Assembly: GCF_001570985.1 (NCBI RefSeq)
Contig: NZ_BCSS01000002.1
Coordinates: 1-64,000, forward strand
Reading direction: 5' to 3'
From: Janibacter limosus NBRC 16128
GTDB taxonomy: Bacteria > Actinomycetota > Actinomycetes > Actinomycetales > Dermatophilaceae
Length of the DNA stretch: 64,000 bases
Part shown: positions 5,256 through 47,483 of the stretch, in pieces
Position numbering within the stretch: position 1 is the first letter of the stretch
How the letters are laid out: each line of letters begins with the position of its first letter
Made by a program: the position numbers and the translations under genes
Notes under the pieces: model-generated
Database searches by the model: none
Told to the model about the DNA's origin: nothing
Seen by the model: the letters and a program-made list of their open reading frames with translations, nothing else

Positions 5256-5318
5256 CAGGGAGTGTGCTGGGCGCAACTCGGTGGTGCCCACCCCAGATAT
5301 CGGGGAGGATCCCCCTTC

Positions 5319-43861: not shown

Positions 43862-44857
43862 TCAGGCTCCCTGCGCCAGGTGCCGGCGCAGCTCGTCGAC
43901 GAGCTCGGCCCGGTGCTGGGCACCGGCCCGCGTCACTCCGGAGAAGCTGGCGAAGCCGTGCGGCAGCCCCACGTAGTTGGTGACCCGCACTGGGACCCCG
44001 GCCTCACGCAGCGCCTCTCCGTACCGCAGCCCGTCGTCGCGGATCGGGTCGAGGTCGGCGGTCTGGATGAGCGCGGGGGCCACCCCTGCGACATCGCCGA
44101 AGAGGGGCGAGACGAGGGGGTCGGTCAGCGAGACGGCATCGGCCGCGTCACCGATGTAGTGCGCGCGGAAGGCGAGGATCTTGGCCTCGGTGAGGATCGC
44201 CCCCTCGGAGTGCTCCTTGATGGACGGCGAGGCCATCGTCAGGTCGGTCGCCGGGTAGAGCAACGCCTGGTGGCGGATGACCGGCTCCCCGTCCGTCGTG
44301 CGCAGGTCCCGCAGCTGCTGCGCGACGACCGCTGAGAGGTTGCCCCCGGCAGAGTCCCCGCACAGCGCGATCCGCTCCCGGTCGACGCCGTGGTCGGCGT
44401 GCTCGTGCAACCACTGCGTGACGTCGATCGCGTCGAAAGCGGCGGTGGGAGCACGGTGCTCGGGTGCCATCCGGTAGTCGACGCTCACGACCACCGCATC
44501 GAGCTCGGCCGCGAGGTGGGTGCACAGCGGGTCGTACATGGGTGTGGAGCCCTGCACCCAGCCACCGCCGTGGAAGTACACGACGAGGGCGCGTCCCTCC
44601 CTTCGTCCTGACGGCGTGTACCAGCGAAGGGGGATCGACGCACCGTCACGGGCGGGAGCGCTGCCCTCGTCGATGGCCACGTCTGCGCGCACCCGACCGG
44701 TGATCCAGGAGAAGGGGGCCGACCTCGGGTACACCTTGACCCTGGCCGCCTCGATGTCCTCCAGGGTGGCGTCGACGATCGATACTCGCCCGACGTTGTC
44801 GAGGAAGGTGGTCACCAGACCCACCAGGGGGGCCAGGCCGGGGTAGGGACGCTTCAC
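43862..44857 (-). CDS. Alpha/beta hydrolase, HSL (family IV) type
   Basis: 331 residues. VVYFHGGGWVQGSTPMYD gives the oxyanion HGGGW motif, ALCGDSAGGNLSAVV the nucleophile Ser (GDSAGG), DPIRDDGLRYG the acid Asp, and GLPHGFASF the catalytic His. This full triad marks an esterase of the hormone-sensitive-lipase type, cytosolic. GTG 44857 overlaps the stop of the next hydrolase gene (GTGA). The two look like diverged tandem duplicates with the same motif order. Confidence 0.9.
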   Translation of the reverse strand: MKRPYPGLAPLVGLVTTFLDNVGRVSIVDATLEDIEAARVKVYPRSAPFSWITGRVRADVAIDEGSAPARDGASIPLRWYTPSGRREGRALVVYFHGGGWVQGSTPMYDPLCTHLAAELDAVVVSVDYRMAPEHRAPTAAFDAIDVTQWLHEHADHGVDRERIALCGDSAGGNLSAVVAQQLRDLRTTDGEPVIRHQALLYPATDLTMASPSIKEHSEGAILTEAKILAFRAHYIGDAADAVSLTDPLVSPLFGDVAGVAPALIQTADLDPIRDDGLRYGEALREAGVPVRVTNYVGLPHGFASFSGVTRAGAQHRAELVDELRRHLAQGA

Positions 44858-45825
44858 GGGTGCTCCTGGTGCAGGTGGTGGGTGACCTCGGCGACGAGCT
44901 CGTCGAGTGCCGCGTGGGCGGCCGGAGCGAACCCCGGGAAGGTGATGAAGCCGTGCGGCGCACCGCGATAAGTCGTCGCGCGCACCTCGACGCCGGCGTC
45001 CTGCAGGGCGGCGGCGTAGGCCAACCCGTCAGGCCGAAGGGGGTCGTGCTCGGCCGTCTGGACGAGCGCCGGTGGCAGGCCGGTGAGCTCGCCGAGGGCG
45101 GGGGAGAGCAGCGGGTTGCGCTCGTCGCCCTCGTCGCCGAGGTAGAGGCTGCGGAAGGACCGCATCATGTCGGGCGTCAGCAGGACGAAGCGTCGGTCGG
45201 CCCCCTGGAGCGCCTCGACCTCACGCTCGGTGAGGTCCGGTGCGGGGTAGACCAGGGCCTGGTGCCGCAGTCCGGCGAAGCCCTCGTCGCGCAGCTGCTG
45301 CGCCACCGCAGCGGCGAGGTTTCCGCCGGCCGAGTCCCCGGTGACCCCGACGGAGTCCGCCCGTGCCCCCAGCTCGGCTGCGTGCTCGATCGCCCAGTGG
45401 GTCGCGTCGAGGCAGTCGTGGACGGCCAGGGGAGCGCGGTGCTCGGGCGCCATCCGGTAAGCGACCGTGACCACGACGACCTGCGCCCGCGCCGCGACGG
45501 CGGTGCACCACGGGTCGTAGACGCCGATGTTGCCGATGACGAAGCCGCCCCCGTGGAAGTGCACGAGCAGCGGAAGGGGACCGCTCGCGCCATCGGGTCG
45601 GTGCACCCGGACCTTGAGCTCGTACCCGTCGCGGGTGGTGATCCGCTGCGATGTCGAGGTGACTCCGGAGGTGGGTGTGCCGAGGATCCACGTGTACGGC
45701 CGCCGCATCGGCAGGCTGCCGCGCATCCGCGACAGCTCCGCAGGGGTCATCTCCTCCGCGATCGCCGCCGACCGGGTCAGCCGGTCCAGCAACCGCGTGC
45801 GCCAGGGCATCCAGGGTCTCGTCAC
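44854..45825 (-). CDS. Alpha/beta hydrolase, HSL type (paralogue)
   Basis: 323 residues from GTG 45825; GTG 45849 and ATG 45810 are alternatives. I prefer 45825 because TGGAAT lies 6 nt before it. The triad is complete: VHFHGGGFVIGNIGVYD, VTGDSAGGNLAAAV, HDPLRPDGLAYAAAL and GAPHGFITF. The N-terminal 40 residues form a helical cap. It is the first gene of the operon with its paralogue and DUF3054. The substrates are unknown. Confidence 0.87.
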   Translation of the reverse strand: MTRPWMPWRTRLLDRLTRSAAIAEEMTPAELSRMRGSLPMRRPYTWILGTPTSGVTSTSQRITTRDGYELKVRVHRPDGASGPLPLLVHFHGGGFVIGNIGVYDPWCTAVAARAQVVVVTVAYRMAPEHRAPLAVHDCLDATHWAIEHAAELGARADSVGVTGDSAGGNLAAAVAQQLRDEGFAGLRHQALVYPAPDLTEREVEALQGADRRFVLLTPDMMRSFRSLYLGDEGDERNPLLSPALGELTGLPPALVQTAEHDPLRPDGLAYAAALQDAGVEVRATTYRGAPHGFITFPGFAPAAHAALDELVAEVTHHLHQEHP

Positions 45826-45857
45826 GCGCCCATTCCAGCATGTCCGCACCCCTTCTG

Positions 45858-45902
45858 GTGGAGGTGTGCGCGCAGACGAAAGGTCGGCGGGTCTACCTCC
45901 AC
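45858..45902. repeat. Palindromic repeat, copy 1 (45 bp)
   Basis: It begins GTGGAGGTGTGCGCGC and ends GCGGGTCTACCTCCAC, a palindrome with 8-bp outer arms (GTGGAGGT/ACCTCCAC). It matches copy 2 at 39 of 45 positions with no gaps. The distance between copies is 66 bp. Copy 1 has less perfect inner arms, consistent with drift. No similar element is seen elsewhere in the window. Confidence 0.85.
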
Positions 45903-45923
45903 CGCGGCGGCTCGGTCTTCCCA

Positions 45924-45968
45924 GTGGAGGTATACGCGCGGATGAAGGGTCGGCGGGTATACCTCCAC
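45924..45968. repeat. Palindromic repeat, copy 2 (45 bp)
   Basis: It begins GTGGAGGTATACGCGC and ends GCGGGTATACCTCCAC, with 12-bp perfect arms (GTGGAGGTATAC/GTATACCTCCAC) around a central region with GGGTCGG. It ends 6 nt before the dop -10, so it covers the likely -35 region. An mRNA hairpin, protein-binding site or mobile element are all possible. Confidence 0.85.
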
Positions 45969-45974
45969 CGCGCC

Positions 45975-45980
45975 TAGGGT
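45975..45980 (+). promoter_or_regulatory. -10 TAGGGT before dop
   Basis: TAGGGT, 6 nt, then ATG 45987; leaderless spacing. The palindromic repeat lies directly upstream. Confidence 0.6.
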
Positions 45981-45986
45981 GAGGGC

Positions 45987-47483
45987 ATGAGCGTGCGTCG
46001 GGTCATGGGCATCGAGACGGAGTACGGGATCGCGGTGCCGGGGCAGCCCTGGGCCAACCCGATGGCGGCATCGGGTGAGGTCGTGACGACCTATGCCCGG
46101 GCACATGGGCTACGGGCGGGGCACGGCGCGTGGGACTACAGCGACGAGCACCCGCTGGTCGACGCGCGCGGGTTCGAGATGCCGAGGGCGCGGGCCGACA
46201 TCTCGCAGCTGACCGACGCCGAGGACCCCTCGTTGGCCAACGTGGTCCTCGCCAACGGCGCCCGCCTCTACGTCGACCACGCGCACCCGGAGTACTCCTC
46301 GCCGGAGGTGACCTCCCCGCGCGATGCCATCGTCTGGGACCGGGCGGGCGAGCTGGTCATGCGCGAGATCGTCGCGCGGCTGGCCCAGCGCGAGCCGGGG
46401 ATCAACCTCTACAAGAACAACACCGACGGCAAGGGCGCGTCCTACGGGACCCATGAGAACTACCTCGTGAGCCGGGTGACCCCCTTCGACCGCATCGTCT
46501 CGGGGCTCACGCCCTTCTTCGTCGCCCGCCAGGTGATGTGCGGTGCCGGGCGCGTCGGGATCGGGCAGGAGAGCGAGCACGCTGGGTACCAGATCGCCTC
46601 CCGCAGCGACTTCTTCGAGGCGACCGTGGGCCTGGAGACGACCTTCAAGCGGCCGATCATCAATACTCGCGACGAGCCCCACGCCGACCCCGACCAGTGG
46701 CGTCGGCTGCACGTGATCATCGGTGACGCCAACCAGGCGGATGTCGCCAACCTCGTCAAGCTTGGCTCGACCTCGCTCGTGCTGCGCCTGATCGAGGCCG
46801 GCGCGATCGACCGCGACCTGGAGATCCTCCACCCGGTCGAGTCGCTCAAGGTGATCTCGCACGACCCCACGTGCCGGGCCACCGTCCGGCTGCGCGACGG
46901 TCGCGACCTCACCGCCGTGCAGATCCTCACCGAGTACCTCGAGATGGCGACCTCCTTCGTCGAGCGCGAAGGGAGCGACCCCGCCACCGACGAGGTCCTG
47001 CACCACTGGGAGCGGCTCGTCGGCCTCCTCGCCGGCGACCCGATGGACGCGGCCGCCGACATCGACTGGGTCGCCAAGCTCGCTCTCCTGCAGCGCTACC
47101 GGGACCGCGACGGACTCGCGTGGGACGACCACCGACTGCGCGCGATCGACATCCAGTGGTCCGACGTGCGCCCCGACAAGGGCATCTTCCACAAACTCGA
47201 GGCGGGCGGACGGATCACCCGGCTGACCTCCGAGGAGGACGTGGCGGCCGCGGTGAGCACGCCGCCGGCCGACACCCGCGCCTGGCTGCGTGGGCGCATC
47301 GTCGAGGCCTTTGGGCCGCAGGTCATCTCGGCCTCGTGGGACTCCGTCGTCCTGCGGCTGCCGGGTGCCGGTCGCGTGGCGCGCCTGTCGATGCTTGATC
47401 CGCTGGCCTACGGACGCGAGGCGACCGAGGCGCTCGTGTCGGCAGGCGACATCGACGACCTCGTGGCGACCCTCGGGGCATAG
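45987..47483 (+). CDS. dop: Pup deamidase/depupylase Dop
   Basis: 498 residues of the carboxylate-amine-ligase fold shared with PafA and glutamine synthetase. MGIETEYGIAVPGQ has the metal-binding Glu pair, and NNTDGKGASYGTHENYLV the nucleotide site. The insert after residue about 38 (GLRAGHGAWDYSDEHPLVDA) is the Dop loop that PafA lacks. Dop converts the C-terminal Gln of Pup to Glu and removes Pup from proteins. Pup here ends in Gln, so Dop is required. The next gene is pup, with its own promoter. Confidence 0.95.
   Translation: MSVRRVMGIETEYGIAVPGQPWANPMAASGEVVTTYARAHGLRAGHGAWDYSDEHPLVDARGFEMPRARADISQLTDAEDPSLANVVLANGARLYVDHAHPEYSSPEVTSPRDAIVWDRAGELVMREIVARLAQREPGINLYKNNTDGKGASYGTHENYLVSRVTPFDRIVSGLTPFFVARQVMCGAGRVGIGQESEHAGYQIASRSDFFEATVGLETTFKRPIINTRDEPHADPDQWRRLHVIIGDANQADVANLVKLGSTSLVLRLIEAGAIDRDLEILHPVESLKVISHDPTCRATVRLRDGRDLTAVQILTEYLEMATSFVEREGSDPATDEVLHHWERLVGLLAGDPMDAAADIDWVAKLALLQRYRDRDGLAWDDHRLRAIDIQWSDVRPDKGIFHKLEAGGRITRLTSEEDVAAAVSTPPADTRAWLRGRIVEAFGPQVISASWDSVVLRLPGAGRVARLSMLDPLAYGREATEALVSAGDIDDLVATLGA

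Follow-up and report, generated by a model that had tools for sequence, protein, structure and literature searches.

REP palindromes have known ties to Y1 (RAYT) transposases. Some palindromic repeats, the CGTC REPs, apparently have no dedicated transposase (PMC3733652). The AbiEi protein binds two 23-bp inverted repeats located 3 bp apart in its own promoter (PMC7319586). In the open-access literature, as represented by titles and the openings of abstracts, neither DUF559 nor AbiEi was linked to dispersed palindromic repeats. In the tandem element upstream of dop in Janibacter limosus NBRC 16128, neither end carries a GTAG/GTRG (or CGTC) tag that is left unpaired, as GTGGAGGT pairs with ACCTCCAC at both ends, and other subfamilies of the element are also without GTRG (e.g., TTCGATGT).

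The window is the whole stretch of 64,000 nucleotides that was analyzed. It belongs to a draft genome (G000) that comprises 101 contigs and 3.38 Mb, and Janibacter provides the closest named relatives of its dop. The paired dyads occupy the gap that separates dop, which encodes a Pup-ligase-family protein (PF03136, 3.1e-182), from an esterase gene of divergent orientation (Table 1). The first-pass annotation had described two 45-bp copies 66 bp apart, with 39 of 45 identical positions, each copy being a palindrome with the ends GTGGAGGT and ACCTCCAC; all of this was borne out, coordinates included, the 66 bp being the start-to-start distance. Its account of copy 2, with perfect 12-bp arms (GTGGAGGTATAC/GTATACCTCCAC) that stop 6 nt short of the probable dop -10 and a position covering the -35 region, likewise agrees with the sequence, and it was right to dismiss a reading of the copies as repeated peptides. 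A TANNNT motif is located about 6 nt ahead of the dop start codon in the window and in several relatives. Since TAGGGT is a plausible -10 only 6 nt from the ATG, the dop transcript may be leaderless. The octamer CCCCTTCG/CGAAGGGG was considered as a part of the element and rejected, being common all over the window with no consistent adjacency to the copies. It is over-represented in the window's genome, with 44 occurrences in the 64 kb (e.g., at 5312, 47497 and 55600), 40 of them inside predicted genes.

Table 1. Features of the tandem element and its neighbors, in window coordinates.
Feature	Coordinates	Strand	Remarks
Element copy 1, 45-bp dyad	45858..45902	.	Sequence, pattern and profile matches
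Spacer between copies, 21 bp	45903..45923	.	19-21 bp across the 20 pairs listed
Element copy 2, 45-bp dyad with 12-bp perfect arms, adjoins dop promoter	45924..45968	.	
Probable dop -10, TAGGGT	45975..45980	+	6 nt before start codon; predicted function
dop, Pup-ligase family, downstream neighbor	45987..47483	+	Outside element
Divergent neighbor, alpha/beta hydrolase (Abhydrolase_3), esterase gene	44854..45810	-	Start codon uncertain

The element pair is not specific to dop. Exact matches to GTGGAGGT-N15..40-ACCTCCAC were found 7 times in the genome, as compared to 0 for a control with the reversed pattern; with 3 mismatches allowed the numbers were 113 and 54, which shows that loose patterns are noisy. 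A covariance model was built from 24 copies and used to score 150 of 5192 candidates, so that the site count is a lower bound. It gave 78 strand-matches at E ≤ 0.01, representing at least 40 distinct sites at 27 places, with nothing between E 7.4e-4 and 0.01. A position-weight scan over the window and 23 loci identified 40 sites, each scoring above 45, as compared to below 0 for the reversed control; relative to the covariance model, it recovered one extra partner site on contig C41 and missed a place on C50. The sites that were read form 26 units, 14 pairs and 12 singles, with the pairs spaced 64-66 bp apart (64 bp in 3, 65 bp in 15 and 66 bp in 2 of 20 pairs from this genome and its relatives). 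A repeat family, raised as a possibility in the first-pass annotation, is thus upheld by further copies in the genome and in relatives. Stray ends are almost absent, with 49 of 51 half-site matches in the genome falling within element places, and on this count an IS bearing these sequences as its ends was rejected.

The gene context of the copies was assigned from simple gene calls of our own. In the J. limosus genome, the elements are dispersed, intergenic and near gene 3' ends, as are REPs: of 26 places, 14 are flanked by convergent genes and 10 by tandem genes, while one is at a contig edge and one, the dop place, is divergent (convergent versus divergent, p = 0.001). In the loci from six relatives (G005, G006, G007, G008, G010, G012), 12 places are convergent, 7 are tandem and 2 are within a predicted gene; the single divergent one is the dop place of G012. 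Because divergent places are so rare, the family tends to avoid promoter regions, with dop as the exception. The convergent bias is not universal, since the 22 places in G001 are mostly tandem (15, with 5 convergent, 1 divergent and 1 inside a gene). In G022, a predicted gene that encodes PrmC_N and methyltransferase domains contains an element, with in-frame read-through (L239:6552-6595).

At the dop place, one element is present in G010 and G012 (Dop 96% identical), none in G002, G003, G004, G008, G009 and G011 (Dop 81-91% identical), and another sequence in G015 (Dop 97%), in a comparison that covers ten of the 16 Janibacter genomes. The implication of the first-pass annotation that the pair is a regulatory element of dop is therefore not sustained, as most other copies are located at the 3' ends of genes, none of the other 25 places is divergent, and six relatives have no element upstream of dop. 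The element may have effects on dop.

Elements with exact ends were found in 17 of 58 genomes, searched with a wider gap range, and in 18 of 186 genomes of the same taxonomic family. Their numbers are patchy, ranging from 0 to 40 per Janibacter genome, with 11 in G077, 15 in G202 and 7 in G022. Across species, the ends and a length of 44-45 bp are kept while the interior varies. A search of viral contigs gave 25 stretches with the end pattern of the element. The dyads in G001 are arranged in arrays with further half-sites (L166-L185). In these GTGGAGGT arrays the spacings between dyads and extra half-sites recur at 36, 27-29, 17-19 and 14 bp, and a second repeat resembling CAACTGCCCGGGCA is found several times beside elements (L166, L172, L175). 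No mechanism emerged from position correlations in the G001 elements.

We compared the pairing of arms from the same copy to that of arms swapped between copies. The values were 81.6% versus 81.5% for 24 copies, 0.784 versus 0.797 (sd 0.006) for 71 copies and 0.714 versus 0.747 (sd 0.007) for 37 copies from G001, so that arm covariation within the Janibacter family is absent in the first set and slightly negative in the other two. The mean MFE was -24.1 for same-copy arms and -25.6 for swapped arms. On the evidence of these sequences, the element within Janibacter is not a selected hairpin; its halves vary independently, like the half-sites of a DNA-binding protein. Across subfamilies the arms change together, so that the dyad symmetry itself is maintained. 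No consistent excess of matching flanks indicative of a target-site duplication was found in 51 units (offsets -2 to 8, lengths 2-8). Insertion into the loops of terminator hairpins was also considered and rejected, as flank complementarity was not above permutation (p = 0.13).

A comparison of the genes adjacent to elements revealed one recurrent family. What the first-pass annotation missed is that the palindromes bracket, and co-diverge with, this AbiEi-nuclease-like gene. The partner gene in J. limosus (G000:C41:31017-31952) has element pairs on either side. Five members were aligned, and the alignment was used to search 54 genomes. Members at E ≤ 1e-15 were present in 39 of these (85 matches in total), and one locus from each of 30 genomes entered the comparison. 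All of the ten best partner genes (>420 bits) have GTGGAGGT elements nearby. The elements are 45 bp long at eight of the ten, in each case on either side of the gene, and five of the eight were absent from the seed alignment. The bracket is looser in G077, where the downstream elements are about 750 bp past the partner gene, beyond a predicted peptidase-like gene. Distant members are associated with other palindromes, such as TTCGATGTATT..AATACATCGA in G199, GTTGATGCCAC..GTGGCATCAA in G030 and ACGTGTGTGAAG..CTTCACACACGT in G016, and the subfamily-specific palindrome around partner genes is typically 44-50 bp long. In a few loci (e.g., L264, L267, L277, L278), no dyad was selected on the upstream or the downstream side.

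Flank-to-flank similarity exceeded that of 30 shuffles in 29 of the 30 partner loci (score ≥50 in 22), the sole failure being L253, as compared to 6 of 69 control loci (score ≥50 in none), where the control is one orthologous gene, dop, and not a mix. With 60 shuffles, 27 of 30 loci passed and L253, L257 and L270 failed. A phylum-wide search of 246 genomes yielded matches in five genomes, including that of J. limosus, and three of the genomes are from other families of the class; all five new genes passed the flank test. So did the one contig from a phage collection with a relative of the partner protein (1 of 1), as well as a distant 70-bit paralog in G022. No relatives of the partner protein were found in IMG/VR, searched with two short peptide patterns, or in plasmids. 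A divergent AbiEi/DUF559-like gene in G022 (L241:6573-7574) is flanked by direct repeats of about 128 bp that hold a 48-bp palindrome, GTAGGGAGCGGATC.., which raises the possibility that a far broader class of genes is bracketed.

Across 30 loci with automatically picked dyads, the similarity of the palindromes was correlated with that of the proteins (r = 0.65; 0 of 2000 permutations). At least two exact copies are present in 8 of 8 Janibacter genomes with a close gene, as compared to 2 of 8 without (one-sided p = 0.0035, for genomes that are related and not independent). G001 has the most exact copies (40), yet no close gene; GTCGAGGT palindromes flank the only family gene that it has. In G202, there are 15 exact copies and no gene above 420 bits. 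A 400-kb sample of G407 (20 stretches, two of them placed on genes) contained one dispersed copy besides the bracketing ones, and strong amplification is therefore perhaps special to some lineages. In G013, a partner-gene fragment (model positions 183-252) is located beside element half-sites (C1:803945-804282), which is probably a decayed unit.

The partner protein is about 310 residues long. Its N-terminal 190 residues match the PADLOC profile for AbiEi in 15 of 16 members (best 1.6e-12; 6.4e-26 for the distant L285 protein), and Pfam AbiEi_4 in only 6 of 16 (best 0.004). The C-terminal part gives a weak match to DUF559 in 8 of 16 members (best 5.6e-4), to mREase_II in 7 of 16 (best 8.9e-6) and to PvuRts1I at E 0.05, the latter spanning D..EID..H. 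Residues E207, D238 and E248 are invariant and D250 is near-invariant. None of the six proteins first scanned reached the curated Pfam/NCBIfam cut-offs. We predict that an AbiEi-like DNA-binding part is fused to a PD-(D/E)XK (DUF559/PvuRts1I-like) nuclease-like domain, the nuclease half being assigned from weak profile matches. The AbiEi operator of 23+3+23 bp (PMC7319586) would fit the 44-50 bp dyad. AbiEii was not matched by any of ten proteins encoded near the partner gene or at the add-deoC gap (5 loci); a Pfam scan of seven proteins gave NadA, GST_C_2, A_deaminase, DeoC and Peptidase_M50B.

The elements that bracket the gene have GTGGAGGTaaaCgCGC as outer and GTGGAtGccgACtCGC as inner arms, so that the left and right elements are mutually inverted. 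In 18 other pairs, 36 of 36 outside arms are of the outer type and, more weakly, 21 of 36 inside arms are of the inner type; a polarity difference of this size was never matched by shuffled labels in 20,000 trials. Among single elements, 53 of 62 arms are of the outer type. The pairs thus look as if they were gene-less miniatures of the gene-bracketing unit. The pair at dop has no such polarity, all four arms being outer, one of them barely (1.4), and its copies are unusually alike, for which reasons we interpret it as a solo element that inserted and was later duplicated by 66 bp.

We also compared the gap at the 3' end of deoC, next to add, in 15 Janibacter genomes. Element-gene-element units occupy it in G006 and G008, and element pairs do so in G000, G010 and G012. 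Single elements are found there in G011, G013 and, in weaker form, G007, whereas the palindrome in G003 is of that genome's own type. The gap contains no element in G001, G002, G004, G005, G009 and G014. The upstream gene was seen to be add in G000, G002-G006, G008, G009 and G011, with the A_deaminase and DeoC domains confirmed.

Bracketing, co-divergence of palindrome and protein, gene-less pairs of the same polarity, solo copies, presence or absence at the same site and arms that do not covary in Janibacter are all seen in the genomes compared, and together they suggest that the palindrome family is a type of small mobile DNA that has not been described before. The dop pair is likely to be a dispersed, non-autonomous member of a REP-like and probably mobile family that is served by the AbiEi-nuclease protein. 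We also lean, more cautiously, towards an Actinomycetota-wide class of miniature mobile DNA in which an AbiEi-PD-(D/E)XK fusion, and not an HUH or DDE transposase, recognizes subfamily-specific palindromes of 44-50 bp and spreads them, leaving solo and paired intergenic copies. The autonomous unit would be about 1.2 kb, with a left palindrome or palindromes, the gene, and an inverted right palindrome or palindromes. Two AbiEi-like modules would bind the two half-sites of about 22 bp, by analogy with AbiEi on its operator, the nuclease domain would cut at or near the half-sites, and repair or strand transfer would then spread copies, with gene 3' ends favored where insertion is tolerated. A solo copy may have reached dop in a common ancestor of G000, G010 and G012, displacing the sequence upstream of the dop -10 on arrival, with the 66-bp duplication following in the window's lineage. 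Movement and cleavage are what we infer from sequence comparisons, and the case for movement is weakened by the lack of a target-site duplication, of a close gene in the element-rich G001 and G202, and of strong nuclease matches.

The independent variation of the arms is also what would be seen if the palindromes were operators of an AbiEi-like repressor-nuclease, with the bracketing copies controlling their own gene and the dispersed ones, spread by ordinary duplication, serving as a regulon, decoys or landmarks. The upstream dyad is mostly less than 200 bp from the predicted start of the partner gene, and AbiEi antitoxins bind paired 23-bp inverted repeats in their own promoters (PMC7319586). 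However, autoregulation is a rather unlikely explanation, since a second copy is near or just past the stop codon in most loci, the dispersed copies avoid divergent, promoter-containing regions (14 convergent versus 1 divergent in J. limosus), and gene-less pairs and presence or absence at the same site fit better with mobility. An operator specific for dop, to which the location of copy 2 over the -35 region would lend itself, is the least probable of all readings in view of the dozens of copies elsewhere in the genome and the element-free region upstream of dop in G002, G003, G004, G008, G009 and G011.

The preference for gene 3' ends, including convergent gaps in J. limosus and its near relatives, and the stability of the predicted hairpins (mean -24 kcal/mol) would agree with a role in RNA, as bidirectional terminators or 3'-end stabilizers. 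We consider this improbable, given that same-copy arms pair no better than swapped ones in either the 71-copy or the G001 set, that Rfam gave no match at E ≤ 1 within 45400-46400, and that such a role gives no reason for the bracketing of one gene family. Mobilization as classical REPs by a RAYT (Y1) transposase is very improbable: size, dispersal, pairing and 3'-end location are like those of GTAG REPs (PMC3733652), but PF01797 was identified in only 2 of the 58 genomes searched and in none of the 16 from Janibacter, as compared to 5 of 14 control genomes, both ends are symmetrical without a one-sided GTAG foot, and the bracketed gene belongs to a different family.

On the preferred reading of a mobile family, the unusual promoter sequence of dop, a gene of the proteasome pathway, is explained. 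More generally, a protein that resembles an antitoxin joined to a restriction nuclease has, in many genera, palindromes of its own that bracket its gene and diverge together with it. If this protein moves the palindromes, it would represent a new route by which short repeats colonize bacterial genomes, provide a function for AbiEi/DUF559-like genes that are now without an assigned role, and offer many ready protein-DNA pairs for studies of specificity.

The unit has features in common with several known systems. As in IS elements and MITEs, there are inverted end sequences and both a full-length unit and gene-less miniatures, but no target-site duplication was found, no transposase was recognized, and each end is a palindrome that also occurs alone. 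The C-terminal domain has a D-x(n)-E-x-D...H motif resembling that of PvuRts1I/DUF559 nucleases; unlike in those enzymes, an AbiEi-like module is attached to it, and palindromes form a bracket. The N-terminal module and the upstream dyad, with half-sites of about 22 bp resembling the 23+3+23 bp AbiEi operator (PMC7319586), recall the AbiE type IV toxin-antitoxin system; here, in contrast, the module is fused to a nuclease-like domain, the palindrome is also found downstream and dispersed, and the ten neighboring proteins include no AbiEii. REPs and REPtrons (PMC3733652, PMC8266576) share with the present family short and often paired palindromes, a location in intergenic regions or at 3' ends, a bracketed cognate gene and species-specific repeats. 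The elements described here differ from REPs in being full dyads of 44-50 bp, the arms of which do not covary in Janibacter, and the partner is an AbiEi plus PD-(D/E)XK-like protein, whereas that of the REPtrons is a Y1 HUH transposase (TnpA-REP/RAYT).
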